Source: a virus
Length of the DNA: 52,785 nt
IMG/VR virus record: IMGVR_UViG_3300035145_002598
Span: 1-52,785 of that record
Reading direction: 5' to 3' (one strand)
Part shown: positions 2,369 through 52,785 of the stretch, piece by piece
Numbering within the stretch: the stretch's first letter is position 1
Layout of the letters: each line of letters begins with the position of its first letter
Program-made: the position numbers and the translations under genes
Notes under the pieces: generated by a model
Database searches by the model: none
The model's input: only the letters and a program-made list of their open reading frames with translations
What the model was told of the DNA's origin: nothing

Positions 2369-3316
2369 ATGGGTATCTATTCACAGATCACTCCCGAGTT
2401 TCTGAAGAGTACGACGCTCCTCGGGATCGACCTCACGCTCGACGACGGTTCGGACTATCCGGACCTCGTCTACACCCAATCTATACAAGCAGCGATAAGA
2501 CACGTCGAGAGCGACCTCGGGATCAATGTCGAGCCGTTCAAGGTCACGCGGGAGCGCCACGACGCCGAGCGTCAAGGTCAGTTCTCGTACTGGCCGTTTC
2601 GCCTAGACGCGCGCCCCGTGATCTCGTTCCAAGCTGCGCGGATCAGGTTCGGCTCGTTTCAGCCCGTCGAGGTCCCGACATCGTGGATCACGGCGACCTC
2701 AACGACACACGGGCAGGTGCACCTCATCCCGAGCGAGGAGTCCCTCGGCTCCTATTTCTTCCGCGCGGGCGTTCCCCTGATGGGGGGCTTCGGGATCTAC
2801 GAGTCACGCGACTACATCCCCGCTTATTTCGAGTTCGACTACACTGCTGGATTCGACGAGCGCACAGGGACGGCGACGATCCCCGCGGGGGAGACGAGCG
2901 TCGATGTCACGCTCGACTCGCGCGTGCTCCTATCGTACCAAGTCACGACGGATCAATCGACGGTACGCGTGAGCGGTCGAGGGAATGAGGGCTTTACGCT
3001 CAGCGTAACGAGCGCACCCGCGGAGGACCTCGTGATCGAGTGGACGCTAGACACGCTCCCCGCGGACCTCAAGCAGGCCGTCGCGATCAAGGCTGCGACG
3101 CTCTTACTCTTACACGTCGCCGGTGACTTGATCCTCGGCGCGGGTATCGCGTCGCAGTCTGTCAGCGTTGACTCGCTGAGCACGTCGATTGATACGACCT
3201 CCTCGGCGATGTACTCGGGCTACTCAGCGCGCGCTGAGAGCCTCGACAAGCAGTACAAACTCCTGATGAACGGCCTACGATCTCAGTATCGCGTCACTCA
3301 GTTCGGTGTGATCTGA
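2369..3316 (+). CDS. Head-tail connector (neck) protein, adaptor type
   Basis: The protein has 315 residues. An N-terminal helical part (about 10-55, YTQSIQAAIRHVESDLGI) resembles gp6/gp15-type adaptor proteins that bind under the portal. A long beta-rich insertion covers about 80-230, and a C-terminal helical bundle begins with LPADLKQAVAIKAATLLLLHVAGD, a common pattern in this family. GAGAGAGG precedes the ATG. It is followed, with a one-base overlap, by the zinc-motif neck gene. Adaptor identity is inferred from helix pattern and gene order. Confidence 0.6.
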   Translation: MGIYSQITPEFLKSTTLLGIDLTLDDGSDYPDLVYTQSIQAAIRHVESDLGINVEPFKVTRERHDAERQGQFSYWPFRLDARPVISFQAARIRFGSFQPVEVPTSWITATSTTHGQVHLIPSEESLGSYFFRAGVPLMGGFGIYESRDYIPAYFEFDYTAGFDERTGTATIPAGETSVDVTLDSRVLLSYQVTTDQSTVRVSGRGNEGFTLSVTSAPAEDLVIEWTLDTLPADLKQAVAIKAATLLLLHVAGDLILGAGIASQSVSVDSLSTSIDTTSSAMYSGYSARAESLDKQYKLLMNGLRSQYRVTQFGVI

Positions 3317-4125
3317 TGACGACGTTCCCGAGCAGAGAGCCGACGAAGGTCAGACCCCGCGTCGACTTCGATCCTGAGCGATTCAGGAAACATATATTCG
3401 CGAAGGGCGTCGATCTGACGTGGGCGCAGTGCGCCGAGTGTCCCTGCGCTCGAAGCGCGAGCGACTTCACGCTCGACCTGAGCTACTCGAGCGCGTCGAC
3501 CGAGACAGGCGAAGCTCGACCCGATTGTCCGCTATGCGACGGTCGCGGGTACTTCTGGCACAGCGAGCAGACGATCCGCGCGATCGTGACATCCGGATCG
3601 AGTAAAACCGATTCGTTCGCGGTGTACGGCGAGTACGCTCGAGGGATGGTGTCGATCACGACGCTGCCCGAGCACCTCCCCGCGTTCGGCGATCGCTTCG
3701 AGATCGTCGACTCCGTGATCGTGTTCAGAGAGACACAGACGCGGACGGCGAACGCGGTCGAGGCGCTACGCTATCCGATCCAGTCACGGACGTTGGACCT
3801 CGCGACCGGCGAGACCGTCGTTCGTGTGTTGCGCTTGCAGTTCGCCGACGCGAACGGCTTGAGCGCCGAGGCTAACTCGTTAACAGAGGGAGAGGATTTC
3901 GTCGTCACCGAGGACGGCGAGATCGACTTCTCACTCGGCGACGCGAGCGGAACAGCGCCCGCGGAGGGTCTGCGATACAGTGTCTCGTATTATGCGCGTC
4001 CTCGTTACTACGTTGCTAGTCACCCTCACACTCATCGCGACTCTACACGGCGACGTAAGAGCACCACCGAGGCGCCGATCACGCTCCCGATACAAGTCGA
4101 GTGCTCGCTCGAGTTCATGGGGTGA
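3316..4125 (+). CDS. Head closure-like protein with N-terminal zinc ribbon
   Basis: This 269-residue protein has four cysteines arranged like a zinc ribbon: CAECPC around residues 38-43 and CPLCDG around 73-78, the latter followed by a GYFWH stretch. The rest (about 85-250) is predicted beta-rich, as in head-closure or stopper proteins that plug the connector. The C-terminal tail contains HPHTHRDSTRRRKST. ATG overlaps the previous stop by one base. Gene order (adaptor, this, completion, terminator, sheath) supports a neck role, but the exact role is not proven. Confidence 0.55.
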   Translation: MTTFPSREPTKVRPRVDFDPERFRKHIFAKGVDLTWAQCAECPCARSASDFTLDLSYSSASTETGEARPDCPLCDGRGYFWHSEQTIRAIVTSGSSKTDSFAVYGEYARGMVSITTLPEHLPAFGDRFEIVDSVIVFRETQTRTANAVEALRYPIQSRTLDLATGETVVRVLRLQFADANGLSAEANSLTEGEDFVVTEDGEIDFSLGDASGTAPAEGLRYSVSYYARPRYYVASHPHTHRDSTRRRKSTTEAPITLPIQVECSLEFMG

Positions 4126-24141: not shown

Positions 24142-25808
24142 GTGAACCGGAGGACGTTCGCCGACTGAGGGAGCTCCCCCTCGACGTCGAGGTCACGGGC
24201 GAGGAGTACGTCGATCAGTTGACGCGATTATACGCGCGCGATCCAGATGCACCGACGCAGACACTAAGACCGCTTCAAGCTGCGATGCTCGTGCAAGCGA
24301 TACGCGGAGACGGTCTCGTCGCGCTCGCGGGGTGTGGATCGGGCAAGACCTTAACGTCTCTCTTATTGCCCCTCGTGCTCGGCGCGGAGCGTCCGCTGTT
24401 ACTACTCCCCGCAGCGATGCGCGCGCAGAACGCGAGCGACCAACGCGACTACGCGCAGCATTGGCGACTCATCCCCGTCGAGGTCATGAGCTACGAGGGG
24501 TTAAGCTCACCGAGTCAACGCGCGCGTCTCGAGGAGCTCGCGCCCGACCTGATCATCTGCGACGAGGCTCACGCGTTAAGGAACCTCAAGAGCGCGCGCG
24601 TGAGACGCCTCGAGTCGTACATCCGAGCGAGTCGCGCGAAGCTCTGCGCGCTGAGCGGGACGCTCGTCTCTCGCAGTCTGCGCGACTACGCTCATGTGAT
24701 GAATTGGGCGCTCCGCGTGTGGTCCCCCCTCCCTCGACACAACAGCATGATCGACATGTTCGCTCGCGTGATCGAGGACGGCGACGCGACGAAACAGATG
24801 AGCGAATATGTCGACAGCGCGCTCCCTCCAGGTGACACGCTCGAGGATCGCTTACACGTCCGGCTCCGTCGATCGCGGGGGGTCGTGATCTCGAGTGATC
24901 AGCGCGTCGCGTCCTCCCTCGTTATCGAGACGCGCAGATACAAACAATCGAAGAGGCTGCGCTCGGCGCTCGTGCGTCTGCTAGCAGATCAGAACGTCGT
25001 GAGCGCGACACACGACGCGCTTGATGAGGAGACCGTCGAGCTCATGCTGCGTAGCTCGGATCTGTGGAGCCCGAAGGATGCGATCTACTCGCGCGTGTGG
25101 GCTCAGCTCGCTATGGGTTGCGTGTACATATGGGATTGGGGAGACCGCGCTCCCGATTATCAATGGGTCGAAGCTCGGCGCGGTTGGGGCTCGACGGCTC
25201 GGCGTATTCTGGACGTCGGTCGCTATGACTCCGAAGCGCTCTTAAAGCGTGACTTGAGGAGCGGAGCGTACAGAGATCAGCGTGCGCGCGACGCGCTTGA
25301 TGCGTGGGACGCTGTGAGGGATCGAGAGCCACCGATGACGCGCGCGATATGGGTTGATACGTCGTGGGTCGAGGACGTCGTCGCGTGGGCTCGTGCTCAG
25401 AAGGACCCGCCGATCATCTGGGTGCAGTTGCAAGAGGTCGCGCGCAAACTACACGATTTGACAGGGTGGGCGATGTACGGGAGCGGGAGCGAGGCGAGCG
25501 CGCAGCTCGACGCTAATCGACACACCGCTCACCCGTGTATCATGTCGATCGCGTCACATGGTACGGGGAAGAATCTCCAAGCGTGGCGCTCTCAGATCGT
25601 CGCGCATCCCCTCTCGCATCCGGCGCGATGGGAGCAGATGATCGCGCGCACACACCGACACGGACAGCTCGCCGACTCCGTGAGCGTGACCGTGTATCGT
25701 CACGGGCTGTTCGGTCGCGCGCTCAACAAAGCGAGGAAAGACGCGCAGTACATCGTCGACACGACGGGACAAGAGCAGCGCTTAATCTACGCCGATGAAG
25801 CGCGTTAA
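24138..25808 (+). CDS. SNF2/SF2-type DNA helicase-translocase
   Basis: This 556-residue protein has superfamily 2 motifs: motif I AGCGSGKT (about 64-71), motif II DEAH (about 138-141) with VEVMSYEGLSS before it, motif III ALSGT, and near the C-terminus motif VI QMIARTHRHGQ. RTHRhGQ is the SNF2-family form. The Q-motif-like TLRPLQAAMLVQAI precedes motif I. The region between the two RecA-like halves (about 190-420) is divergent and rich in charged residues. The start overlaps the nuclease stop. It probably remodels DNA or protein-DNA complexes during replication or recombination. Confidence 0.82.
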   Translation: MSEPEDVRRLRELPLDVEVTGEEYVDQLTRLYARDPDAPTQTLRPLQAAMLVQAIRGDGLVALAGCGSGKTLTSLLLPLVLGAERPLLLLPAAMRAQNASDQRDYAQHWRLIPVEVMSYEGLSSPSQRARLEELAPDLIICDEAHALRNLKSARVRRLESYIRASRAKLCALSGTLVSRSLRDYAHVMNWALRVWSPLPRHNSMIDMFARVIEDGDATKQMSEYVDSALPPGDTLEDRLHVRLRRSRGVVISSDQRVASSLVIETRRYKQSKRLRSALVRLLADQNVVSATHDALDEETVELMLRSSDLWSPKDAIYSRVWAQLAMGCVYIWDWGDRAPDYQWVEARRGWGSTARRILDVGRYDSEALLKRDLRSGAYRDQRARDALDAWDAVRDREPPMTRAIWVDTSWVEDVVAWARAQKDPPIIWVQLQEVARKLHDLTGWAMYGSGSEASAQLDANRHTAHPCIMSIASHGTGKNLQAWRSQIVAHPLSHPARWEQMIARTHRHGQLADSVSVTVYRHGLFGRALNKARKDAQYIVDTTGQEQRLIYADEAR

Positions 25809-25819
25809 ACTTTTTTAAC
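25804..25819. promoter_or_regulatory. AT-rich palindrome at the end of the helicase gene
   Basis: GTTAAA and TTTAAC are separated by CTTT, overlapping the helicase stop codon and lying nine bases before the -35 of the SSB promoter. A longer version of the same motif is at 40251-40270. Possible operator; a GC-poor stem is unlikely to be a terminator. Confidence 0.4.
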
Positions 25820-25827
25820 ATTGTATC

Positions 25828-25856
25828 TTGACACCTCGAGCGGGGTGTCTTACTGT
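25828..25856 (+). promoter_or_regulatory. Strong sigma70-like promoter for the SSB gene
   Basis: TTGACA (25828-25833), a 17-base spacer and TACTGT (25851-25856). The -35 is perfect. GAGGATCCTC (25857-25866), a perfect 10-base palindrome, covers the expected start site and may be an operator. An A-rich leader with ACGAAACAACGA leads to the ATG at 25927. Confidence 0.6.
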
Positions 25857-25926
25857 GAGGATCCTCGCTCGTTTCGCGGGGCAACACGAAACAACGATCG
25901 CACGATCAAAGACACAAGGAGTCAAC

Positions 25927-26490
25927 ATGACTTTTGACATTGGACAGTATTCAGACGACATCGCGAACGCGGAGTTCGACCGCGTGGACCGCGATTTCAT
26001 GGAGGCGGGGACGCACCTCATCCGGATCGAGGGAGTCCCCGCGATCACCTCGAAAAACACGGGGAACAATCTCGTGATCCTCGAGGCGCAGATCGTCTCG
26101 TCCGACTACCACGCGCCCGAGACGCTGGTTAAGCACCTCTTCCAACTCTCAGGGGTCGACCGTTGGAAGGTGCAGAGGAATCTCTCGCAACTGAAATCGA
26201 TCGTCGCTGCAACGCTCCCCGCCGAGGCGAGACACCTCGTCACCGCTGACATCGTAAACAAGGCGTTTCGCGAGGGGCTGTGCGTCGGCGCGGTCATCAA
26301 GGTCGTCGTCAAAAAGAAGACCTCTAAAAATGGCGCGGAGTACCTCGACTACTCGTTCCTCGCTGGACCCGAGGAGCTCAACCGAGGCGACGAGCCTGAG
26401 ACCGAAGAGACCGCTCCGTCCGGTAACAACTGGAACGTGAGCGAGGGTGATGACGCGAGCGACGACGACGGCGCTGACGTACCGTTTTAA
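25927..26490 (+). CDS. ssb: Single-stranded DNA-binding protein (phage type)
   Basis: The ATG at 25927 is preceded by AAGGAG and gives 187 residues; the longer in-frame reading from 25828 would begin inside the promoter. The N-terminal 140 residues are an OB-like alpha/beta domain (GTHLIRIEGVPAITSKNTGN, then LVILEAQIVSSDYHAPETL, then VKKKTSKNGAEYLDYSFL). The tail is acidic and ends DDDGADVPF, like the Asp-rich, Phe-ending tip with which SSBs recruit partner proteins. It has its own promoter. Its context is between the helicase and polymerase genes. Confidence 0.72.
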   Translation: MTFDIGQYSDDIANAEFDRVDRDFMEAGTHLIRIEGVPAITSKNTGNNLVILEAQIVSSDYHAPETLVKHLFQLSGVDRWKVQRNLSQLKSIVAATLPAEARHLVTADIVNKAFREGLCVGAVIKVVVKKKTSKNGAEYLDYSFLAGPEELNRGDEPETEETAPSGNNWNVSEGDDASDDDGADVPF

Positions 26491-26493
26491 TCG

Positions 26494-26520
26494 TTGACTG
26501 ACGACGCTAGACGTGATACT
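26494..26520 (+). promoter_or_regulatory. Possible promoter before the polymerase leader
   Basis: TTGACT (26494-26499) and GATACT (26515-26520), with a short 15-base spacer; TAGACG at 26508 is an alternative. It lies four bases after the SSB stop and 128 bases before the polymerase ATG, so a long leader containing a terminator would be made. Confidence 0.35.
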
Positions 26521-26565
26521 CAACGCGAGAACTCTCTCCGTTGGGTTCTGAACTAGCAAACGACG

Positions 26566-26602
26566 CCCTCGATCGTCAACACCGGTCGGGGGTTTCGTTT
26601 AT
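26566..26602 (+). terminator. Rho-independent terminator or attenuator before the polymerase
   Basis: CCCTCGATC (26566-26574) pairs with GGTCGGGGG (26584-26592) in nine base pairs, two of them G-U, with a nine-base loop, followed by TTTCGTTTAT. It could end SSB transcripts or control read-through into the polymerase gene, whose ATG is 20 bases further. Confidence 0.6.
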
Positions 26603-26622
26603 CTACGAGACAGGAGAGAGCG

Positions 26623-28482
26623 ATGCTAATCGCAATTGATACAGAGACCTATTTGATCAAGGGTAGGAATGTCCCGCCGTTCGTGTGCCTCAGTTACGCG
26701 GAGCTCGTCGGCGCTGAATGGCGCGCGGGTGTGATGCGCGGAGAGGACGCTCGCGCGTATCTGGAGCGCGCGTTCTTGGGACACACGGTGATCTTACATA
26801 ACGCGCGCTTTGACCTCTGCGTGATCGCGCGCACGTTCCCCTCGTTGATGCCGATCATGTTCACGGCGTTAGACGAGGGGCGCGTTCATGACACGCGGAT
26901 CCGCGAGAAGCTACACAAGATCGCGAGAGGGGGAACGGGGGACGGCGTGATCCTCGACGAGGACGGACAGAGCGTCGGCGCGAAGCTGAGCCTCGGCGGG
27001 CTCGCGTTCAAATACTATCAACTCGACATCCGAGAATCGAAGAGGGGGGGCGTCCGATACACGTATGACGAGCTCGCCGACACTCCGCTCGAGGAGTGGG
27101 GCGACCAGGCGATCAACTACGCTACACAAGACGCGCTCTTGACGGGGCTCGTGTTCCACGCACAAGCGCAAGCGATCCCGAGCGAGGAGCTCCTCGACGA
27201 GTGTGCTCAGGTGCGCGCTGATTTCGCGCTCGGCTTGATCGGCGCGGAGGGGATGCGCGTCGATCCAGACGCGGTCGGAGGGGTCCGCGCTGCGATCGAC
27301 GCCGAGGTCGAGGAGCTCAAGACTCAGCTTCGTCGCGTCGGTCTACTCGACGTAAAAGGTAAAGCGAACACCGCGCTCATCAAGGATAAGATTGACCTCA
27401 TCCTCTCGACGCGGGGCGACGAGGTCCCCAAGACCTCGAGCGGAGAGGTCAGCACATCACGCGACGCGCTCCTCGCGACGGGTGATCCGGATCTCGCGCT
27501 CCTCGATCAGTACCGTCGCGCGGTGAAGCTCGGCTCGACATACGTCGGAGAGCTCGAGAGCGCGAAGCACTACGGCGGGATCCTGCGCGCGGAGTATAGC
27601 GTGCTGATGAGGACGGGGCGAACGTCGTGCAAGCGCCCGAACTTACAGAACCTCCCGCGACGTGGGGGGATCCGCGACTGCTTCATCCCGCGCGAGGGTA
27701 ACGTGTTCATTCTCTGCGACTACGATGCAGCGGAGATGAGGACGCTCGCCGAGTGTTATCTCTACGTGACCGGCGAACACTCACCGCTCGGCGAGATGTA
27801 TGCGCAGGATCCGCAGTTCGACCCACACTCGTATTTAGGCGCGCGGATCCTCGGGATCGAGTACGAGGAGATGCTTAAGCGCGTCGCGGAGGGTGATGTC
27901 GAGGCGAAGGGCATGAGGCAACGAGCCAAGCCCGCGAACTTCGGATACGCGGGAGGCATGGGCGCGAGCGCGTTCATCAACTACGCGCGAGGGTACGGCG
28001 TCAAGCTGAGCGAAGAGGAAGCGAGCGACTTACGCGACACCTGGATCTCGACGTACAAGATGAGGCCGTGGTTCAAGGAAGCGGAGCGCGCGCACAACGA
28101 CGGGCGCGTGATCTGTCCATCGTCGCAACGCATCCGCGGGAATCCGAGTTATACGGAGTCCGCGAATATGCCGTTTCAAGGTATGGCTGCGGACGGCGCG
28201 AAGCGCGCTCTCTTCGAGCTCGCTCGCGAGTGTTGGACCGATCCAGAGTCTCCGCTGTTCGGGTGTCGTCCGGTCGCGTTCATTCATGATGAGGTGCTCG
28301 TCGAGTCCCCGAAGGAGCGCGCGCACGAGGCAGCGATGCGCGTGCGCGAGATCATGGAGCGCGAGATGATGGTGTGTACACCCAACGTCCCCGCGTCCGC
28401 GACGCCCGCGCTCGCGACGCGTTGGCTCAAGGGCGCTGAGCCCAAGTATGACGAGCGCGGTCGCCTCATCCCGTGGGGGTGA
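26623..28482 (+). CDS. DNA polymerase, family A (with 3'-5' exonuclease)
   Basis: This 619-residue replicative polymerase has both activities. Exonuclease: DTET with D6 and E8, HNARFD with D64, and ATQDAL near 166. Polymerase: RTGRTSCKRPNLQNLP, motif A DYDAAEMRTL (366 on), motif B RQRAKPANFGYAGG (about 430-445, with Arg, Lys and the NF pair) and motif C HDE (555-557). The lack of a 5' nuclease domain and the size match T7-like and other phage polymerases. ATG follows GGAGAG. It ends two bases before the convergent small membrane gene. Confidence 0.93.
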   Translation: MLIAIDTETYLIKGRNVPPFVCLSYAELVGAEWRAGVMRGEDARAYLERAFLGHTVILHNARFDLCVIARTFPSLMPIMFTALDEGRVHDTRIREKLHKIARGGTGDGVILDEDGQSVGAKLSLGGLAFKYYQLDIRESKRGGVRYTYDELADTPLEEWGDQAINYATQDALLTGLVFHAQAQAIPSEELLDECAQVRADFALGLIGAEGMRVDPDAVGGVRAAIDAEVEELKTQLRRVGLLDVKGKANTALIKDKIDLILSTRGDEVPKTSSGEVSTSRDALLATGDPDLALLDQYRRAVKLGSTYVGELESAKHYGGILRAEYSVLMRTGRTSCKRPNLQNLPRRGGIRDCFIPREGNVFILCDYDAAEMRTLAECYLYVTGEHSPLGEMYAQDPQFDPHSYLGARILGIEYEEMLKRVAEGDVEAKGMRQRAKPANFGYAGGMGASAFINYARGYGVKLSEEEASDLRDTWISTYKMRPWFKEAERAHNDGRVICPSSQRIRGNPSYTESANMPFQGMAADGAKRALFELARECWTDPESPLFGCRPVAFIHDEVLVESPKERAHEAAMRVREIMEREMMVCTPNVPASATPALATRWLKGAEPKYDERGRLIPWG

Positions 28483-30870: not shown

Positions 30871-33800
30871 ACGATGTACCACGCGTCGTTCGTCGTATCA
30901 CATACGAGCGTAACACTTGAGTATTGCACGTTCATCGCGAGCGTCCCGTTCACGACCGTGTCGAGGCTGTCGCCCGTGTTCGGCGTGATCGTGAACGTGA
31001 CGTTCGAGACCGACTTAATGTCGATCAAGGTCCCGCTCGTCACGCTCGACGCTGCGGGGAGGTTCACGACACGATCCGCGGACGACGTGAAGATGTAGAC
31101 GATCCGCGCAGCGCTTGGAGCGCTAATCGTATAATCTGCGCTCAGGGTGAGGGGCGAGACTGTCGCGTGAGCGCTTCCCCCTCCTCCGGATTGAGCGACC
31201 CATGAGAGGACGCCCGAGCCGTCGGTCTGGAGCACGTCGTTCGCGTTGCCGTCGTTTACGGGGAGCGTGAGCGAGTACGAGCCCCCCGTACTAAGCGCCG
31301 TATGAGTCGGGCTCTTGATCGTGACGTGGTGTGAGTTCTGCTCGCAGTTGAGACGGATCGCGCCCTGATTGTTCCCGCCGGTCGTGTTCCCGAGGATGTT
31401 GACGACGCCCGTCCCATCGGGCGCGAGCTCGAGGTTCGCGTTCGACGTCGTGACAATATCGTGACCGTTGAGATCGAGGTTCGCGCCGAGCTGCGGGGAG
31501 GCGTCCTCGCTCAAGTTCTGGAGACGTAAGCCGAGCGCCGTGTCAATGCCGATGAGGTGATCGTCGACATTAACGTCCGCTGCTGTGTAGTTCGAGGGCG
31601 TCGCGTGATCTGCGTTGAGGTCGTCCGCGCTGAGAACCACGGGACCCGTCGCGCCGTTCACCGAATCGACGGGCGCGCTCTGCGGGTCTCCGATTAAGTA
31701 TTTCCCGTTAGTCGCTGAGCTCTTCCAACCGACGATCTTGATCCACTGCCCCGCCGAGACTGTGAGCGTCGTAACGTTCGTGTTACTCGCACCCCCGATG
31801 CCGTCGATCCCGTCCGTCGCGTTGATGATGATATCACCATCGACCGCGCGCCCGACCCACATCTCGAACGTCTCGACGACACTCCCTGTCGCTCCGGTCC
31901 CCGTGAGCACCGAGAGGATCGAGGGGAGCGTGAGCGTAAAGTTCCCCGTACTGCTCGCGCCGTACCACACGTTTAAGTCTGGCGCGTCGCTCGCTGATGG
32001 CGAGTACGAGCTGCTCGTGGTCGCGTAGATGTTGGGATTCGTTGAGCCCCCGACCGACGCGAGCGCGGAGTCGATGCCCGCGAGGTGTCCGTCGATATTC
32101 GCGTTCGAGGCGGTGTAGTTCACGGCTGTGTGATCCGCGAGTAAGTCGTCCGCGCTCGGAGTCCCTGAGAGATCCGAGTACGCGCCCGACGACGCGACCG
32201 TCGCGAGACCGAGCGTCGTGCGCTGAGCTGCTGCGTCGGCGTCGTCGAGCAACGCGCGACCCGCTGCCGTGATCGACGCGGTCGTGTAGGAGTCCGCGCC
32301 GTCGGTGTAGATGATCTCGTCGCCCGACGTCGTCAAGCCCGCGATCGACGTGAGTCCAGAGTCGAGAGGTTGATACGAGAGATCGTCATTAAACGAGCTC
32401 AGAGCGATCGAACTTAAAGCCGTCGGCACGCTTCGATTATTCGAGTCGCCCAAGAAGATCTTGCCGTCGTTGAGGTTCGGAGTCGCTGCGCTACGTCCCG
32501 CCCCGCCGACTTTGATGATCCCTTCGGTCGCGCTCGCGCGAACGACGCGCCCGATGTTTTGGATCAAGTTCGCCTCGCCCGCGGGCGCTGTGTTCGTGAG
32601 CTCCCCCGCGTTCGTCGCTGAGACGTAGAGCGTATCGCCCACGCTGAGCGAGAGCGTCGTCGTGTCGTACTCCGTCAGATTCCCAAACGAGATGATCTGG
32701 ACCTCGGCTTGGTCGTTGGCGCCACTCGCAGCGAGACCAAACGCGGGCATCGTGGAGGCGCTGTTCGCCTGCGCGAGCTTCACGGTGGGGACGTCACCCG
32801 AGACGCTGTGGATGTAGACGACGTCCCCCTTGTTGATCGCGACGCCCTGGTCGTTCTTCGCCTTGAATCTGATCGCGCCGTTAAGGTCCGAATAAGTTGA
32901 CACGTAGCGCGCAGACTCTGAGCCGATGGTGTGCGTCCCGTCGGCGTCGGGGATGAGGTCCGCGCCGATCGCGATGTCCCCCGTCCCGTCGGGGTCGAGC
33001 GTGACGTCCCCATTCGATCCGGTCGCCGAGGTGATCGCGTGACCATTCACGTCGAGCGGGTTCCCGAGCTGTGGGGATGTGTCCTCGACGATGTTCGAGA
33101 GCCCACCCGCAGCGACGACAGCAGCGGAGACAAACGCGGTCGTCGCGATCTGTTGCGTGTTCGTCCCCGCGGTCGCTGTGGGAGCCTCGGGAACGCCCGA
33201 GAACGTGGGGGACGCGAGCGGGGCGAGGAGACCGAGCGCGTTATCGATGCCGACGAGGTGATCGTCGATATTAACGTCCCCCGCTGTGTAGTTCGTAGGC
33301 GTCGCGTGATCTGCGTTGAGATCGTTCGCGCTCGGCTTGTTCGCGAGATCGTTGTAGTCTCCGGAGGTCGCGACGGTCGCGAGCGTCGGAGTCCCTGAGA
33401 GGTCCGCATATGCGCCAGAGGTCGCGACGGTCGCGAGCGCGGGAGCGTTCAAGAGATCGTTGTAGTCTCCGCTCGTCGCCACAGTCGCGAGCGCGGGAGC
33501 GTTCAAGAGATCGTTGTAGTCTCCGCTCGTAGCGACGGTCGCGAGCGTTGGGGTCCCTGAGAGATCCGCGTATGCGCCAGAGGTCGCGACAGTCGCGAGC
33601 GTCCCGAGCTTCGCGTCGAGCCCGCTCAGGTGAGTCGTAAGCGTGTCGCTGTTCGTCGCGGTGTAGTTCGTCGCGTTGTGATTTCCGGTGATCTCGTCGC
33701 TCGTTGAGGGGTCGACGTTGTCGATCCTGTCGAGCTTCGCGTCGCTGAACGTCCCGCCCATATCGGCGTTAACGATGATCGAGTCGCCCACGCTGTAGAC

Positions 33801-43112: not shown

Positions 43113-44102
43113 TCACTCAAAGAGGCTTAGCTGATCGCAAGCGCTCGACGTTTGACGCTCGACGCTCTGCGCTGCTGCGCTTGAGGGTTTCGAGCACATA
43201 GGGGAGCGCGTATCCGCGCGCTTTAAGATTCGCGCGATCTGATTCACAGCGTACGCGCCCCCCTTGCTCGTCCGATATCCGCGACGCGTGAGCTCGTCAG
43301 TGATCGCGCGGAGCGAGAGCCCCTTCTCGCGTAGATCTTGGATCACGTAGACGAGTTGCGGGTGGAGCTCGTTCAATGAAGGACGAGCGCGATGAGGCTT
43401 GCGCGGATTCACGTTCGGTGAGCGTGGCTTACGCTTGGGACGCGTCACCTCGATCCCCGTACACCAACGGCGTAACGTCGTCCCGCTTGGTGCTGATCCG
43501 CTACGCGCACGAATCCCCTCGCGTTTACACGCCTCGTGTAGACGCGTGAAGCTGAGACCCTGAGCGCGGAGCTCGCGGGCGCGCTCGATCTGCGCGCGCT
43601 CCTCCTCGTTGGGGACGATGTGTCCGTCGACCTCGCGGTATCCGAGAGGGACCGTCCCTGTACGCTCTCCGCGCTCGCGCTTCGCTCTGAGTGTCGCGCG
43701 GACGCGACGAGAGAGGAGCGCTTGCTCGTACTGCGCGACCATGTCGAGCATCGAGCGGAGGAGCGCGGACTCTGGCGACGCGTCCGTCTCTGCGTCGAGT
43801 GTGATGAGGCGCGCCCCCACGCGCTCGATGTGACGCCCGGTGAGCGTGTTGTCCATCGCGTCTCGACCGACGCGATCGCGCGCCGACGCGAGGATCGTGT
43901 CACCCGCTGAGAGGACGTTGAGGAGCTCACCGAAACCAGAGCGCTTGACCGCGGGAACTCGACCGCTGCATGTGTCAGAGAACACGCGAGAGACGTGCCA
44001 CCCCTGCGCGGTCGCGTGTGTCTCACACTGCGCGCGTTGTCTCTCGAGGCTCGTCTCTTGTCGCGGTGTGCTCCTGCGGGTGTAGATGTATACGTGTGTC
44101 AT
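43113..44102 (-). CDS. Serine recombinase (resolvase/integrase family), mid-size
   Basis: From the ATG at 44102 (GAGGAG upstream) the protein has 329 residues. The catalytic domain has YTRRSTPRQETSLERQRAQC with S11 as nucleophile, SARDRVGRD with the DRxxR pattern and LRSMLDMVAQYEQALLSRRV. A linker RERGERTGTVPLGYREVDGH leads to helical DNA-binding repeats (about 185-290; SFTRLHEACKREGIRARSG, LSLRAITDELTRRGYRTSKG). It is longer than resolvases and shorter than large phage integrases. The structured region on its upstream side may hold its crossover site. Longer starts upstream (to 44471) run into the non-coding region and are rejected. Confidence 0.8.
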   Translation of the reverse strand: MTHVYIYTRRSTPRQETSLERQRAQCETHATAQGWHVSRVFSDTCSGRVPAVKRSGFGELLNVLSAGDTILASARDRVGRDAMDNTLTGRHIERVGARLITLDAETDASPESALLRSMLDMVAQYEQALLSRRVRATLRAKRERGERTGTVPLGYREVDGHIVPNEEERAQIERARELRAQGLSFTRLHEACKREGIRARSGSAPSGTTLRRWCTGIEVTRPKRKPRSPNVNPRKPHRARPSLNELHPQLVYVIQDLREKGLSLRAITDELTRRGYRTSKGGAYAVNQIARILKRADTRSPMCSKPSSAAAQSVERQTSSACDQLSLFE

Positions 44103-44570
44103 CGGCTCCTCGTCTCTCCGTTGGTTGTGTTTGTTAAACCGATAACACACCCCGCGCGACGAGGCAACGGTGAGCGATGAGGCGACGGGGCGCTTATGGT
44201 CGAGCGGTGAGCGTCGGAGCTCAGCGACACACGACGCGCTCACACACGCGCGCTCGTTGTCGATGGTGTGAGGGACGACGCGCTCGCAGAGGTGCGAATT
44301 CTTGCGATCACGCACTCCGGCCTCGCACACGCGCCCGCACGCGCCCACCCTCGCCTCCGCGATCCGCAGCCCCTCGAGGTCATCCCCCGCGTCTACCTGG
44401 TTCTCTGAGACAAGCTCGTCGAGCGCTCCCGCGATACGCGGATCGATGGAGCTCGTCGTTCGCCGGTCCACGTCTCAGCGTTCACTCTGGAGCGCTTCGC
44501 GCAGCTCTCCGGAGGTGCGTTTCGCGATTCGCGATTTACGCGTTTAGGTGTCGACGATTTCTCGCCACCT

Positions 44571-44830
44571 CTCGACACCTCGCTCGACACCACGCTGAAA
44601 CCCCCACGCGTTCGGCGTTCTGCGTTTAAATGGTGTCGAGGTGTCGAGGTTGTGGAGTTGAGCGGAGAGAATACGAAAACGGGTCTCCTCTTTTCTGTTT
44701 ACTTCTAACAATGTTTCCCCAGAACTCCACACTCTCGACACCTCGACACCAAAACACGAAATAATCGTTACTTATTACATACTTACGTGTGGTGTCGAGA
44801 AGGTGTCGAGAGGTGTCGAGAGGTGTCGAG
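44571..44830. repeat. Ten nine-base iterons GGTGTCGAG in alternating clusters
   Basis: Minus-orientation copies begin at 44571, 44583, 44734 and 44742. Plus-orientation copies begin at 44632, 44640, 44791, 44802, 44812 and 44822. Two pairs overlap by one base; the last four are spaced 10-11 bases, one DNA turn. This is the layout of replication-initiator iterons. Confidence 0.7.
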
Positions 44831-44843
44831 AACATTTTCGACG

Positions 44844-44882: not shown

Positions 44883-44954
44883 ATCGAAACTTGTTTTCGT
44901 AGTAGTTACGCATACTTACGTCGCGCGGGGGCTCGATTTCACCAAATTTTGATA

Positions 44955-45147
44955 GGGGCGCGCGGTACCACGTCAATAGGGGCGCGCGGTACCACGCCAT
45001 AGGGGCGCGCGGTACCACGCCATAGGGGCGCGCGGTACCACGTCTACCCCCTCAGACGTGGGCGCGCGGTACCACGCCATAGGGGCGCGCGGTACCACGT
45101 CAATAGGGGCGCGCGGTACCACGTCAATAGGGGCGCGCGGTACCACG
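44955..45147. repeat. Eight GGTACC repeats around a central hairpin
   Basis: Copies of GGGGCGCGCGGTACCACG begin at 44955, 44979, 45002, 45025, about 45060 (one G shorter), 45082, 45106 and 45130, with 23- or 24-base spacing. The fourth and fifth are separated by ACGTCT-ACCCCCTC-AGACGT (45040-45059), a perfect six-base hairpin. Because spacing mixes 23 and 24, the array cannot be a coding repeat. Confidence 0.9.
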
Positions 45148-45153
45148 TCTCTA

Positions 45154-45182
45154 TTGACTCACGCCTCGAGGCGTGCTGAGAT
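45154..45182 (+). promoter_or_regulatory. Promoter of the RHH gene with palindromic operator in the spacer
   Basis: TTGACT (45154-45159), a 17-base spacer and TGAGAT (45177-45182). The spacer contains CACGCCTCGAGGCGTG (45160-45175), a perfect 16-base palindrome, so a bound repressor would block the polymerase. A dimeric RHH protein encoded 50 bases downstream is the obvious candidate. Confidence 0.55.
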
Positions 45183-45234: not shown

Positions 45235-45582
45235 ATGAACAGATCAACATCGAAGCGCTATACGCTGCGCTTGACTGCGGAGCTCGAGGAGCTCATCGAG
45301 ACGCGACGCGCTGAGCTCTGGGCTGACTTGAGAATCCGCATCCAGCACGCGGACGGCTTAACCCCCGCTTACGTGATCCGCGACCTCGTCGCGTCGGGTG
45401 TGATGAAAGTGATGAGCGGGGGAGCGACGCTCGCCCCCGTCACCGGAGCGACGACGCGCACACTCAAGCTACACATCCCCCGCAGTCAGTTCGAGCAAGC
45501 GCTCACAGAGATCGCGCAAGCGTATGAGCTCTCGATCCACGCGACGCTCCGCGCGCTGATCGTCGCCGGTGCGTCGTCATGA
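45235..45582 (+). CDS. Tandem ribbon-helix-helix DNA-binding protein
   Basis: The ATG at 45235 (ACGGAG upstream) gives 115 residues. Two RHH-like units are visible: KRYTLRLTAELEELIETRRA with AYVIRDLVASGVM (1-60), and TRTLKLHIPRSQFEQALTEI with SIHATLRALIVAGAS (about 75-115). Each has a strand of alternating residues followed by two helices. RHH proteins act as autoregulators or centromere-binding partition proteins and bind short direct repeats. It follows the eight-repeat array and its palindromic promoter, which makes self-control or array binding likely. No ParA-type partner is visible next to it. Confidence 0.65.
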   Translation: MNRSTSKRYTLRLTAELEELIETRRAELWADLRIRIQHADGLTPAYVIRDLVASGVMKVMSGGATLAPVTGATTRTLKLHIPRSQFEQALTEIAQAYELSIHATLRALIVAGASS

Positions 45583-45818
45583 TGCGCGTCGCGTACAGGC
45601 TCGGAGTGAGCGGAGGTGAGGGGGAGTGTGTCGAGCTCACAGCTCGCGCGAGCGTCGGCGGGTATGTCGCGCAGCTCCCTCGCCGGTCGCGCTTCATCGT
45701 GATCACGCGCGACGGCGTCCGCTGCGCTTCGTCTGAATACGACGCTCGACGCTCTGCGACCAGGTTGACCTCGAGGGGCGTCTACGCGTGTTGGGCTCGC
45801 GTCGAGTTGACGCGCTAA
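45579..45818 (+). CDS. Small hypothetical protein
   Basis: The 79-residue protein overlaps the RHH stop (ATGA). It is Arg-rich beta sequence (ELTARASVGGYVAQLPRRSR, then FIVITRDGVRCASSEY). No family recognised. Operon position next to the RHH gene may matter. Confidence 0.55.
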   Translation: MMRVAYRLGVSGGEGECVELTARASVGGYVAQLPRRSRFIVITRDGVRCASSEYDARRSATRLTSRGVYACWARVELTR

Positions 45819-45853: not shown

Positions 45854-46582
45854 ATGACAACAGAGCAGACACGAGCGGAGCGACGCGAGGCGCGTCGCGC
45901 AGAGAATCGAGCGAGACACGCGGAGCGTCTAGAGCAGGCTCACGCGCGATCAATGACCAAAGCGCAACGCGCCGAGCTACGCGCTCAGGTGATCGAGGAC
46001 TCACTCCCAAGTGTAGACGTGGGACAGTTCCAAGGCGTCGAACCACCGCCGACGACGAGCTATACACATGATCAGGTACTCGCAGCGGGCGAGGCGCTGA
46101 TCAGGGGGGCGACGTTGGGGGACGCCGAGGTCCTCTGCGGTCTCGCGCGTGGCGCGCTCCGTCGTTGGGTGAAGCGTCAGCGCGCGAGCGATCGAGGGGG
46201 AGAGCGCGTCGGAGCGTGGGCTAGCGCTTGCGCGTACACGGTGGAGCGCGCTCTCGCGATTCGCCGGATGAGGTGGCAAGGGCTCGCAGAGGAGGGGGGC
46301 AAGGGGTCGAGCGCTGCGCTCTGGATGCTAGAGCGTCGAGGCGGTCGCGAGTATCAACCGCCGGCTCAGCGCCACGAGGTCAAGCGCGAGTCTCAGGAGG
46401 TCGTCGTGCACACGACGCTCGAGTCAGCGATCGAGCACACGGCGCGCGAGCTCGGTCTCGACGAGGCTGAGCTGAGAGCGCAGGGTGAGTATTGGGCGCG
46501 CGCGATCACGGCGAGCGGGAGAGGCGAATCACTACCCGCGCCGGTGACGATCGACGCCTCCCCCATCGAGGGCGACGAGTGA
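45854..46582 (+). CDS. terS: Terminase small subunit-like protein
   Basis: The ATG at 45854 with GAGGAGG upstream gives 242 residues. The N-terminal 45 are a charged helix (AERREARRAENRARHAERLE). About 75-110 is a helix-turn-helix-like region (ATLGDAEVLCGLARGALRRW). The segment YTVERALAIRRMRWQGLAEE followed by SSAALWMLERRGGREYQPP is typical of small terminase proteins, in which the 'aA.WlLERR' stretch packs the oligomer core. It recognises the packaging site and loads the large subunit. Distance from terL (about 10 kb, other strand) is unusual; identity is based on this pattern. Confidence 0.6.
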   Translation: MTTEQTRAERREARRAENRARHAERLEQAHARSMTKAQRAELRAQVIEDSLPSVDVGQFQGVEPPPTTSYTHDQVLAAGEALIRGATLGDAEVLCGLARGALRRWVKRQRASDRGGERVGAWASACAYTVERALAIRRMRWQGLAEEGGKGSSAALWMLERRGGREYQPPAQRHEVKRESQEVVVHTTLESAIEHTARELGLDEAELRAQGEYWARAITASGRGESLPAPVTIDASPIEGDE

Positions 46583-48660: not shown

Positions 48661-48873
48661 ATGAACACAGAGACAGAGATAAAACTATGGGCGAAGATCG
48701 TGCTCCCCACGGTCGGCGATCCGGTCGCGGAGCGCGAGGCGATCAAGCTGTATCACGACACGCTCCGCACGTTGAGGGAGGTAACGCGCGCGCTGAGCTC
48801 ACCAGTCGCGACCACGCGCGCGCGTTTCGTGTCTGCGCTCGAGGGTGAGCGGACGGTGGAGGGTGACGAATGA
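48661..48873 (+). CDS. Small protein opening the charged-repeat operon
   Basis: The 70-residue helical protein (EIKLWAKIVLPTVGDPVAER, then LYHDTLRTLREVTRALSS) is not made of the charged repeats. GGAGAG precedes ATG and the stop overlaps the next gene (ATGA). Function unknown. Confidence 0.6.
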   Translation: MNTETEIKLWAKIVLPTVGDPVAEREAIKLYHDTLRTLREVTRALSSPVATTRARFVSALEGERTVEGDE

Positions 48874-49268
48874 CACCCGAGCAGATCTACAACGCGCACG
48901 CGAACGAGCGACGCAAAGCGCGACGCGCGAACGAGACCGAAGAGGAGCGCGAAGCGCGTCGCGCCAAACGCCGAGCGTATGATCGAGCGCGCGCGAAGGA
49001 GCGCAACGCGCGACGCCGAGAGCGTCGAAGGGAGATCATCGAGACGGAGACCGCGCGCGAGCGCTCAGCGCGTAAGGAGCGAGAGCGCGCGTATGAGGAG
49101 CGTCGACGCGCGGAGCGGACGCCCGAACAACGAGAGCGGATCCGCGCTTATCAAGCGGAGTACAGACGCCGACGCAAGGAGACGGAGACGCCGGAGGAGT
49201 ACCAGGCGCGCAAAGACCGCGCGAACCTGCTGCGCAGAATCAGATACGCGATGAGGAGCGAGACATGA
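48870..49268 (+). CDS. Charged-repeat helical protein 1
   Basis: The 132-residue protein is almost wholly Arg, Lys, Glu and Ala. Repeats of the form E-T-x-E-E-R-E-A-R-R-A-K-R-R run through the chain, and it ends RSET. Expected to be a long single alpha helix, positive overall. The DNA around its end (AGGAGCGAGACATGA) carries the ribosome site of the next paralogue. Role unknown; nucleic-acid binding is a plausible inference. Confidence 0.7.
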   Translation: MTPEQIYNAHANERRKARRANETEEEREARRAKRRAYDRARAKERNARRRERRREIIETETARERSARKERERAYEERRRAERTPEQRERIRAYQAEYRRRRKETETPEEYQARKDRANLLRRIRYAMRSET

Positions 49269-50062
49269 GCCGACGCAAAGAGACCGAAGAGGAGCGCGAA
49301 GAGCGTCGCCTGTACCGCAGGATCATGTATCAGCAGTACATCGAGAACGAGACAGAGGAGCAGCGCGAGCGGAGACTCGCGCAGATGAGAGAGCGCAAGC
49401 GTCTGCGGACTCAGCGCGAGACGCCGAAGGAGCGCGCGAGGCGACTCGAGAAGCACGCGCTTCACGCGCGGGTCAAGTACGCGCTCAACCGCGACGAGCT
49501 CCAGGCGTATCACCGCGAGCGCTACCAGCGCTTGAGCGAGGAGCAGTATGAAGCGTACCTCGCGCGCAACCGCGCGAGCCGGAAGCGTCGACGCGAGGAG
49601 GAGACGCCCGAGCAGCGCGAGGAGCGACTCGCGAAGCGTCGCGCTAAGTATCACGCGAAGAAAGCAGCGGAGCGCAGATCGAGCGAGCGCGAGCAAGCCG
49701 ACAAGCGAGGCGCGCGGGTGGAGACCGAAGAGGAGCGCGAAGCGCGACTCGCATATCGTCGAATGGCGCGCAAGGTCGCGCTCGAGATGGAGACCGCAGA
49801 GCAGAGGGAGGAGCGACTCGCGAAGCGTCGCGCGCGCCGAGCGGAGCGCACAGCGCGAGAGACCGAGGAGCAACGCGAGCGCAGACTCGCCTCGAGCGCG
49901 GAGCGGAGACGCGCGAAACGCGCCAACGAGACCGAGGAGCAACGAGAAGCGCGACGCGCTAAGCGCCGAGTTGCGAACATCGAGGAGACGCCCGAGCAGC
50001 GCGAGGAGCGACTCGCGAAGCGTCGCGCTAAGTATCACGCGAAGAAAAGGAGCGAGACATGA
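49265..50062 (+). CDS. Charged-repeat helical protein 2 (longest)
   Basis: The 265-residue protein has about nine repeats of ETxEQREERLAKRRAKYHAK type. An exact 66-base duplication inside the gene (49598-49663 and 49982-50047) encodes one full repeat. Start overlaps gene 1, end overlaps gene 3. The middle (about 60-100) has HARVKYALNRDELQAYHRER, less regular. It is probably an elongated helix; no known domain. Confidence 0.7.
   Translation: MSRRKETEEEREERRLYRRIMYQQYIENETEEQRERRLAQMRERKRLRTQRETPKERARRLEKHALHARVKYALNRDELQAYHRERYQRLSEEQYEAYLARNRASRKRRREEETPEQREERLAKRRAKYHAKKAAERRSSEREQADKRGARVETEEEREARLAYRRMARKVALEMETAEQREERLAKRRARRAERTARETEEQRERRLASSAERRRAKRANETEEQREARRAKRRVANIEETPEQREERLAKRRAKYHAKKRSET
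49598..50047 (+). repeat. Exact 66-bp direct repeat pair
   Basis: 49598-49663 and 49982-50047 are identical. Both encode the same repeat unit in the same frame. Recombination between them would delete 384 bases, an in-frame change. Confidence 0.9.
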
Positions 50063-50316
50063 TGCAGACACGAGAGGAGCGTCGCGCGTATCTGCGCGAG
50101 TACATCCAGCGCCCGGAGGTGATCGCGCACCGTCGCGCGTGGCACGCGGAGCGACGCGCGAGGATGAGCGACGAGGAGCTCGCCGAGCGACGCGCGTATG
50201 ATCGGCAGTGGAGAGCGGATCGTCGCGCGAGGATGAGCGACGAGGAGCGCGCGGATCGTCGCGCTAAGGACCGAGAGTATCAACGGAGACGACGCGCCGA
50301 GAGGAGCGAGACATGA
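50062..50316 (+). CDS. Charged-repeat helical protein 3
   Basis: The product has 84 residues from ATG 50062 (or 85 from ATG 50059, which overlaps the previous stop). Repeats are ARMSDEExAxRRAxDRxxRADRR-like, and QRPEVIAHRRAWHAERRA resembles a segment in protein 4 (QRPEVIERRKAWMREYRR). Ends RSET. Same operon and same style. Confidence 0.65.
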   Translation: MQTREERRAYLREYIQRPEVIAHRRAWHAERRARMSDEELAERRAYDRQWRADRRARMSDEERADRRAKDREYQRRRRAERSET

Positions 50317-50660
50317 TCAAACAGGACCCGACGGTGTACGAGACGCCGATCAAGAGACGCGGAGCGGGGCGACCGCGTAAAGCGCAGAAGCAGACAGCGG
50401 AGGAGCGACGCGCGTATCAGCGCGAATACAACCAGCGCCCCGAGGTGATCGAGAGGCGTAAGGCGTGGATGCGCGAGTATCGGAGGATGCGGCGATCCAC
50501 AGAGACGCCCGAGGAGCGCGAGGAGCGCCTCGCCTACGCGCGCCTATGGAGAGAGGCGAAGCGCGCGAGCGAGACCGACGAGGAGCGCGAGGCGCGCCTC
50601 GTGCGTCAACGTATGTATCAGCGCAAATACAAGCAACGAAAGAAGGAGCGAGCGCAGTGA
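50313..50660 (+). CDS. Charged-repeat helical protein 4
   Basis: The 115-residue protein has an N-terminal segment KRRGAGRPRKAQK, which looks like an AT-hook (GRPRK). This is followed by ETPEEREERLAYARLWREAK-type repeats. The end overlaps the start of protein 5 (GTGA). The hook motif supports DNA binding by the family. Confidence 0.65.
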   Translation: MIKQDPTVYETPIKRRGAGRPRKAQKQTAEERRAYQREYNQRPEVIERRKAWMREYRRMRRSTETPEEREERLAYARLWREAKRASETDEEREARLVRQRMYQRKYKQRKKERAQ

Positions 50661-51105: not shown

Positions 51106-51542
51106 GAGGGGAGCCAACGAGAGACGGTCTCATCGAGCTCGACGCGCTCGGGTGACGGTCTCTCTCTGAGCTCGAGCGCGCTGAGTCGCTCGATGATCGC
51201 GCGCTGTAGATCCGTGATCATGTCGCGGTGAATCTGGAGTTGAATCTGCGCGTCCCTCAATCGGGCGATCAGCGCCTCGCGGTCCGCGTTCGCCTTGCCG
51301 AGCTTGTCGCGCAGCTCCTCGACTTCGCTCGGATCTCGACCGCTCGCGATCGCGAGCATCGACGAGATTGAGCCGGTGATGACGCCGAGAATACCCACCA
51401 ACACATCCCGATTCTGATCGACGATCGTGACGCGCGCGAGGAACACGACGAGCCCGACGACGAGCAGTAAAAAGAACACGGCGAACCACCAACCGCGTCG
51501 CGCTTTGTATTCGTCCAACTCCGTCACCTGTTCGCTCACCAT
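51066..51542 (-). CDS. Two-TM membrane protein with coiled coil, partner of the cyclase
   Basis: The 158-residue protein has TM segments at 18-40 (WWFAVFFLLLVVGLVVFLAR) and 46-66 (VLVGILGVITGSISSMLAIA). A long charged helix follows at about 70-130 (VEELRDKLGKANADREALIA), then a disordered acidic end. Its start overlaps the cyclase end by 7 bases, so the two are co-translated. It could be a PycTM-type effector opened by a cyclic nucleotide, or a holin-like protein; no nucleotide-binding domain is visible. The 3' end overlaps the DUF3310 gene by 40 bases. Confidence 0.6.
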   Translation of the reverse strand: MVSEQVTELDEYKARRGWWFAVFFLLLVVGLVVFLARVTIVDQNRDVLVGILGVITGSISSMLAIASGRDPSEVEELRDKLGKANADREALIARLRDAQIQLQIHRDMITDLQRAIIERLSALELRERPSPERVELDETVSRWLPSQSSDSPDSDSES

Positions 51543-52363
51543 TGCTTAAACGCCTCTCTGATCGCTTCGACGGCGATCACGATATAATCGAACCAATCTA
51601 ACCAGGTCACGCCCCACAAGTGACGCCCATCTCGATTCGACATCCACGGGTATATCATAGCGAGAATGTAACCGACGCTGATCCAAGCGAGCCGATACGC
51701 GCTCCACAGCGCCCACTCCCTCCAACGACGATGACGCGCGCGCGATCGAATCGCTTTAGCGCCCCCGACGCGCTTCGCCTTCTCGTTACCGCGCGGAGGT
51801 TGAAGCGACTCGATGGTGTCGCCCACAGCGTACAGCGTGACGGGGTCTCTGACACCCTTGAATCGATAGAGCCCAACGCACGCGAAGCGCGTCCCCTTGG
51901 GCGTCTGTGGGTTCGTTCGATTGCGTACCGCGCGCATCGCGTCCCGCGTGAGGATGACTTGACCCGCTTCGCAGACGGACATCGCGCGCGCGGAGATGTT
52001 CTTCGCGACCCCCTCGAGCTCGACGGACTTCGCTCCGACGGCTGAGTAGAGCTCGTCCTGCGTAACCTCCACAATGTCCCCGTAATGAACGCCGATCCGC
52101 GCGTCGATCTTGACGCGTTGCGGGATCTGGGCTTGATAGTGAAGCGCGAAATTGAGCGCGTCGATCGGTCGCTCGAACGACAACAAGAAGCCGTCGCTCC
52201 TGTCGATCTCGCGCCCGTTGAATCGGTAGAGCAGAGAGCGCGCGAGCCGGTCGTGATATTGTAACCACGTCGCAGCGCGCATCGCCCCGACGCGTTGCAC
52301 GAACGCGGTCGAGCCGATCAGGTCGAGCAATACGATCGCGAGTCTGCGGTGCTTGAGCTCCAT
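51536..52363 (-). CDS. Class III nucleotidyl cyclase with C-terminal membrane segments
   Basis: The ATG at 52363 (GAGG upstream) gives 275 residues; longer starts lie in the divergent promoter region. Residues 1-185 are a class III cyclase domain: LLDLIGSTAF with metal Asp D14, SDGFLLSF with D57, DARIGVHYGDIVEV, KNISARAM with N122 and R126, and GLYRFKGVRDPVTLYAVGD. The residue that is usually Lys for adenine (three before the Gly-Asp pair) reads as Ile, so the product may not be cAMP. About 217-240 and 252-272 are membrane helices at the C-terminus. The following gene is a two-TM protein in the same operon. Pycsar-type defence or phage signalling is inferred. Confidence 0.78.
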   Translation of the reverse strand: MELKHRRLAIVLLDLIGSTAFVQRVGAMRAATWLQYHDRLARSLLYRFNGREIDRSDGFLLSFERPIDALNFALHYQAQIPQRVKIDARIGVHYGDIVEVTQDELYSAVGAKSVELEGVAKNISARAMSVCEAGQVILTRDAMRAVRNRTNPQTPKGTRFACVGLYRFKGVRDPVTLYAVGDTIESLQPPRGNEKAKRVGGAKAIRSRARHRRWREWALWSAYRLAWISVGYILAMIYPWMSNRDGRHLWGVTWLDWFDYIVIAVEAIREAFKQW

Positions 52364-52424
52364 GTGTCCTCGATTCAGCGCGCGTGTGATACACTCCACA
52401 TGATAACAGAGAGGAGCGTCACAG

Positions 52425-52785
52425 ATGGACGAGCACAACACCAGAGTCGAGAACTGTATCGCGCGCGCAGAAGACGCGCACGCGTTTAACGTCACCGAGC
52501 CCCCTCGCGGGTATTACGTCGATAAGGACGGCGTGATCTTGAAGAAGGGCGTGAGCGGATTCAGCGAGGTGTCGGGCGAGGACGAGTGTCACCGCGGAGC
52601 CGAGATCATCCGATACATCAACGACGGTCTCGGGTGGTCTAAAGAGGACCCCTACACCAACTCGTACAACCTGAAGATCGGCGGGTTCAGTTGGTGCGGA
52701 GCGTTCGCTGCGTGGTGTGACATCACGCTGAAAGCGGAGCTCCGTAAAAAAGTGATGCCGTCCACGTATCGCTTGTGGGAGTTCT
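52425..52785 (+). CDS. CHAP/peptidoglycan hydrolase-like lysin, partial (right end open)
   Basis: The ATG at 52425, with GAGGAG upstream (52411-52416), opens a frame with no stop to the window end (120 codons seen). Residues about 85-100 read FSWCGAFAAWC, the catalytic-cysteine pattern of CHAP/NlpC-like phage lysins ('WC.AFv.WC'). The N-terminal 80 residues are acidic with no signal peptide. It is divergent from the cyclase. The His part of the active site would lie outside the window. Confidence 0.6.
   Translation, partial: MDEHNTRVENCIARAEDAHAFNVTEPPRGYYVDKDGVILKKGVSGFSEVSGEDECHRGAEIIRYINDGLGWSKEDPYTNSYNLKIGGFSWCGAFAAWCDITLKAELRKKVMPSTYRLWEF

Follow-up and report, generated by a model that had tools for sequence, protein, structure and literature searches.

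In a 52,785-bp virus record (IMGVR_UViG_3300035145_002598; the whole stretch analysed here, hereafter the window), eight direct repeats, which we call array B, lie ahead of a gene for a 115-amino-acid (aa) protein that resembles tandem ribbon-helix-helix (RHH) DNA-binding proteins. In sister phages the same site holds an array of the same layout whose repeats are unrelated in sequence, and the adjacent protein has changed at an accelerated rate. From these observations we infer that the protein is of the RHH class, that it binds the array and that its binding controls a promoter. We tentatively propose that array B is a multi-site operator of this protein, placed at the promoter of a gene string that runs through the RHH-like gene and a 79-aa open reading frame (ORF) to a candidate gene for the small terminase subunit (TerS). 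The features concerned are collected in Table 1.

An array replaced in sister phages

Array B is real and far beyond what chance would produce. Its eight copies read ATAGGGGCGCGCGGTACCACG(T/C)C(A/T), their GGTACC cores start at 44964, 44988, 45011, 45034, 45068, 45091, 45115 and 45139, and the core-to-core steps of 24, 23, 23, 34, 23, 24 and 24 bp divide them 4+4 around the single 34-bp step. Tandem Repeats Finder (TRF) scored the array at 166-168, and one 12-mer occurs eight times within 220 bp in the window, against a maximum of two in 60 simulated versions of the window (order-3 Markov model). Coordinates, TRF scores and simulations bear out the first-pass annotation of this DNA, which had described eight near-identical GGTACC repeats of 23-24 bp split 4+4; its placing of the array directly before a small gene also holds, the ATG at 45235 lying 86 bp past the array end. 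The hairpin that it noted between the two halves is present, but the stem, given as six bases (45040-45059), has two further pairs and is 8 bp long (arms 45038-45045 and 45054-45061). The unit was found nowhere else in the window, even with three mismatches allowed, and a search of viral contigs with a 15-mer of the unit returned seven copies only in a contig nearly identical to the window and single chance matches elsewhere. All eight GGTACC hexamers of the window fall inside the array; as only ~3-5 would be expected outside it, their absence there is weak evidence of avoidance.

Several other readings of the repeats were rejected. A CRISPR-like array does not fit a conserved unit of ~20 bp with just ~4 bp between units. 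Translated repeats are incompatible with the 23- and 34-bp steps of the window, which break any frame, and the conservation of the ATG and the preceding GGAGACACAC also speaks against them. A decoy for, or avoidance of, KpnI sites was dismissed on account of the low number of GGTACC expected outside the array, the absence of many other palindromes and the lack of GGTACC from the sister arrays. An Rfam search gave sub-threshold chance matches only.

The comparison with relatives covers three distinct phages known from metagenomic contigs, and the database searches speak only for the contents of those databases. The RHH-like gene was found in three IMG/VR records, namely L009, a near-identical copy of the window that is identical over the stretch covered, L010, whose protein is 87% identical, and L038 (57%). 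At the array site, L010 carries eight GTGTCACTGTGGTGACAC units, each a 20-bp inverted repeat, spaced 24, 24, 24, 33, 24, 24 and 33 bp, and L038 carries six GTGATCACGCTGTACACA units spaced 25, 32, 32, 31 and 25 bp. The flanks of the array are 98% identical between the window and L010 over 420 bp upstream and 91% identical over 560 bp downstream. Within an array, the units are 93% identical to one another in the window, 84% in L010 and 73% in L038 (slightly low, as one unit-like match from another part of the contig is counted in this set), whereas between arrays their identity is 43-48%, near background, and no unit was found in the other two phages at up to two mismatches. The hairpin occurs in neither L010 nor L038; it is therefore probably incidental and was rejected as a significant element, and, as the spacings of the sisters also differ, the symmetry of the array about the hairpin proposed in the first-pass annotation was not upheld.

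An array before a small DNA-binding-like gene thus recurs as a module, being found in each of the three related contigs that extend to the site; the lack of an array in related phages, which had been named in advance as a refutation, was not what we found. That the sisters keep array, promoter box and gene with unrelated repeats is what a role of the adjacent protein as array reader would predict. Among 34 records related through the large terminase subunit (TerL), most of which stop short of the site, no further RHH-like protein was found; the protein had no relatives in phage records and one weak chance match in plasmid records.

Table 1. Coordinates of the array, its neighbours and associated sequence elements in the window
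Feature	Position	Strand	Remarks
Serine recombinase	43113..44114	-	Upstream neighbour; Pfam Resolvase, 4.5e-29
Element A, GGTGTCGAG(A) motif, ~ten copies, either orientation	44552..44840	.	Noncoding; contains a nearly perfect inverted repeat of 28 bp with a loop of ~65 bp
Array B, eight 23-24-bp direct repeats, consensus ATAGGGGCGCGCGGTACCACGYCA	44952..45149	+	Site taken by unrelated arrays in L010 and L038
8-bp inverted repeat CCACGTCT...AGACGTGG	45038..45061	.	In the 34-bp step between copies 4 and 5; window sequence, absent from the L010 and L038 arrays
TTGACT, candidate -35 box	45154..45159	+	TTGACTC conserved in all three phages
16-bp palindrome CACGCCTCGAGGCGTG	45160..45175	.	Follows the TTGACT box; only partly kept in relatives
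115-aa putative tandem RHH protein, proposed array reader	45235..45582	+	Orthologs 87% and 57% identical
79-aa conserved ORF	45579..45818	+	Overlaps the RHH-like stop codon; 95-96% and 88% identical in sisters
TerS candidate	45854..46582	+	phrog_4102, E=2.7e-5

The putative reader and the candidate promoter

By eye, the 115-aa protein contains two strand-like segments, RYTLRLT and TRTLKLHIP (strands putatively spanning residues 8-14 and 74-81), with a pair of helix-like stretches behind each, and on this reading it is probably a tandem RHH protein, the fold being our working hypothesis. TraY of F is a tandem RHH protein in one chain, and two RHH units in one polypeptide are likewise proposed here; unlike TraY, the protein matched neither the TraY nor the RHH_1 model when searched directly against them, and no conjugation genes were seen. 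Searches of Pfam, NCBIfam and PDB sequences returned no match, and PHROGs gave only an Arc-like family at E=0.32; short folds like RHH are often missed by sequence models. The AlphaFold models were poor (mean pLDDT 46 and 45), with helices at residues 83-96 and 101-113 and no strands, and the two halves of the protein align no better than shuffles.

Between the window and L038 the RHH-like protein is a divergence outlier, being 55-57% identical where most other compared proteins are 83-98% identical; the other proteins of low identity are the tail-fibre-like protein, a lysozyme-like ORF and a few small ORFs. Its nonsynonymous divergence (dN) is 0.37 and its dN/dS 0.50 in this pair, against a dN of 0.06-0.08 and a dN/dS of 0.13-0.17 for the 79-aa ORF and TerS, and its dN/dS values overall are 0.35-0.50 against 0.08-0.22 for its neighbours. 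In the first putative strand the outward triad R8-T10-R12 is invariant in the three phages, and in the second the triad T76-K78-H80 reads T-K-H in the window, T-A-H in L010 and T-K-A in L038. In the SmpO proteins of staphylococcal plasmids, which are 82-86% identical, the single substitution F7K switches specificity between oriT sites (PMC8136818), and this provides a precedent for a switched specificity of the RHH-like reader. The oriT subtypes of the pWBG749-family plasmids resemble the present case in that close relatives have similar readers and different cognate sites, and autoregulation from the bound site has also been proposed for SmpO (PMC8136818). They differ in that a conjugative oriT with two sites of ~6-10 bp stands against an eight-copy, 24-bp array in a phage, where the RHH fold and the binding are putative.

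The last repeat core starts 13-15 bp before the TTGACTC in the window, L010 and L038, and the TTGACT box is probably the promoter of the downstream gene string. The repeats thus lie near a candidate promoter of the proposed binder's own gene, as is expected of an autoregulatory operator. We envisage that copies of the RHH-like protein would occupy the eight 24-bp units next to one another; a unit that is a 20-bp inverted repeat, like those of L010, would take up two molecules. The bound proteins would form a nucleoprotein stretch that ends beside the TTGACT box and could thereby set the transcription of the RHH-like gene, the 79-aa ORF and TerS. Site and protein would change together, the array being replaced by another of the same layout and DNA-facing residues being altered in one putative strand. 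TerS was itself considered as the reader and rejected; its orthologs are 96, 94, 45 and 34% identical, and with 94-96% identity among phages carrying unrelated arrays it is too conserved and therefore unlikely to read array B. If the RHH-like protein does read the array, the three sisters would offer, as SmpO does for plasmids, DNA-binding specificities that vary naturally within one scaffold, with two to a few candidate residues, and a partner-less array of centromere size would be attached to a phage terminase gene string.

A number of points weigh against the operator. For simple autoregulation an array of ~200 bp is long. The -10 box is also poor; the TTGACT box fell short of the -10 requirements of a consensus promoter scan and was not reported by it. 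No family library or structure prediction confirms the RHH assignment, and the putative DNA-facing triads rest on the assumed fold. Compared with L010, the RHH-like protein is no outlier, its 87% identity standing beside several other genes at 87-90% and others mostly at 87-99%. The co-change of array and protein across three distinct phages is suggestive, not statistical, and a binding mode shared by the three arrays is uncertain, as the inverted-repeat symmetry seen in the sisters' units is missing from the window unit.

Alternative roles of the array

A partition centromere, in which the RHH-like protein would be an adaptor of the ParR, ParG or omega type that serves the segregation of an extrachromosomal prophage, the motor being undetectable, supplied by the host or absent and the arrays diverging as incompatibility groups do, appears unlikely, and less likely than an operator because no ParA or ParM partner was found. 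The layout is nevertheless that of parC-type arrays, with direct repeats ahead of a promoter; direct repeats beside an adaptor gene characterise the centromeres of ParMRC and RHH-type ParABS systems, and array B shows this arrangement. An RHH protein together with ParM or ParA is, moreover, frequent in plasmid prophages (PMC8026635). ParR sites consist of 20-bp repeats in pSK41, four 17-bp repeats in Clostridium perfringens pCW3 and 11-bp repeats in R1, and parC repeats vary strongly between C. perfringens families, ParR binding only those of its own family (PMC9426499). Families that share a layout and differ in repeat sequence are thus common to ParR/parC and the present arrays, but here no ParM was detected, the array lies upstream of a terminase-containing string in a phage, and each chain has two putative RHH units. 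Omega (ParB) of pSM19035 offers an example of an RHH protein on promoter repeat arrays, the parS heptads, that act as both centromere and operator; its sites are contiguous 7-bp heptads of mixed orientation, in contrast to the ~20-bp units spaced 23-34 bp seen here (PMC9499535), and Omega needs a ParA. The first-pass annotation had seen no ParA or ParM nearby, and a wider profile search of the window and sister contigs, which together cover almost the whole phage map, agrees with it and argues against the plasmid-like partition that it suggested. This search found no ParA (PF13614, PF01656), with controls matched in 14 of 14 genomes, and no ParM-like protein (PF06406, PF17989), a weaker test because the controls were weak and the contigs are incomplete. 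In addition, the downstream partner gene is a TerS candidate, and the ribonucleotide reductase, ThyX, deoxynucleoside kinase and DNA polymerase of the phage suit lytic growth, though a serine recombinase is present.

It is similarly improbable that array B controls replication or packaging, forming an origin or pac region together with element A, in which the protein would shape the DNA for initiation or terminase loading. Element A, a cluster of a ~10-bp motif, is found upstream of TerS across the wider family, but neither array B nor an RHH-like gene was detected in L081 and L086, two relatives that both have element A; array B is therefore dispensable for a family-wide origin or pac. The conservation of TerS beside unrelated arrays also tells against this role, as does the little sequence preference for repeats that the DNA-binding domains of SF6 TerS show (PMC4737164). 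A lysogeny repressor, with the array as its operator set and swapped specificities conferring heteroimmunity among the sisters, is very doubtful. The serine recombinase lies divergently upstream, and array and protein diverge between close relatives in the manner of the immunity specificities of Cluster A mycobacteriophages (PMC6550527). No operator copies occur elsewhere in the window at up to three mismatches, however, unlike genome-wide stoperators (PMC9283540); the recombinase locus of L038, a partial contig without a Resolvase match, holds a methyltransferase-like gene, and the array-adjacent promoter leads into the terminase and not visibly into early lytic genes.

Element A and the phage genome

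The study of the array also revealed a repeat cluster shared across the family, a possible mark of the packaging or replication start. The motifs of element A form inverted and direct repeats, and GGTGTCGA, at 0.1 per kb outside the element, reaches 35 per kb within it. The motifs are shared with L010, in the region of 98% identity, so that element A remained unchanged when array B changed. In L038 (4680-5000) the same four positions are occupied by GGGGGGCTAGGTGGTCGAG motifs, and a perfect inverted repeat of 32 bp is present. The distant relatives found via TerL carry clusters directly upstream of TerS, of TAACTACATG in L081 (930-1260) and of AATCTTAACT in L086 (1110-1770). The window, L038, L081 and L086 each have a cluster motif of their own, ~10 bp long and hardly found outside the cluster. 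Array B and its gene look like an accessory insertion between the family-wide element A and TerS, and element A may be a pac site or replication origin with a putative reader of its own. The pac regions of SPP1 and SF6 similarly have direct repeats that span promoters before the small terminase gene (PMC4737164), whereas element A consists of ~8-12 copies of one short motif that varies between phages. A bolder and decidedly unlikely proposal is that the two recognition clusters diversify independently, each replaced wholesale with its reader, and would mark self against non-self between sisters in one host, in the sense of incompatibility, exclusion or a choice in packaging. The serine recombinase was rejected as the reader of element A; in L038 its place is taken by a DNA methyltransferase-like gene (2595-4076, from a by-eye motif reading), and it is therefore not required for element A or array B. 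Within the element-A region of L081 (1064-1108) there are also four 9-bp tandem copies of ATGTGAGAG, which are absent from the window.

The window belongs to an uncharacterised tailed phage. It encodes a tail sheath and baseplate of the myovirus type, a large terminase and a DNA polymerase, and its nucleotide genes comprise a B12-type ribonucleotide reductase, ThyX, dCMP deaminase and deoxynucleoside kinase; its capsid protein bears a distant resemblance to those of Staphylococcus and Bacillus phages. The sister contig G001 runs from the equivalent of window position 44519 past the window end, through 8.3 kb absent from the window, to window position 2129. Taken from these two relatives and not from an assembly, the phage map would close at ~61 kb. 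The search turned up no cellular host; a TerL of 54% identity lies on a 3.6-kb contig of a deltaproteobacterial metagenome-assembled genome, possibly mis-binned. The ribonucleotide reductase homolog of L081 (G021, 25413-27890) was matched in two pieces ~240 bp apart (residues 28-389 and 341-719), possibly owing to an insertion or frame break. At 51536-52495 (- strand) the window encodes a 319-aa protein that, by eye, has a class III nucleotide cyclase-like domain and C-terminal hydrophobic stretches; it matched nothing in Pfam or PHROGs at the cut-offs applied. Three adjacent, highly charged ORFs at 48870-50660 consist of repeated ETxEERExRLAKRRA-like segments, and the DNA itself has repeats at 49859-49959 and 50145-50309. 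Finally, tandem 54-bp repeats (4.4 copies, 33364-33603) lie in the 1070-aa tail-fibre-like gene, which is among the more diverged in L038.
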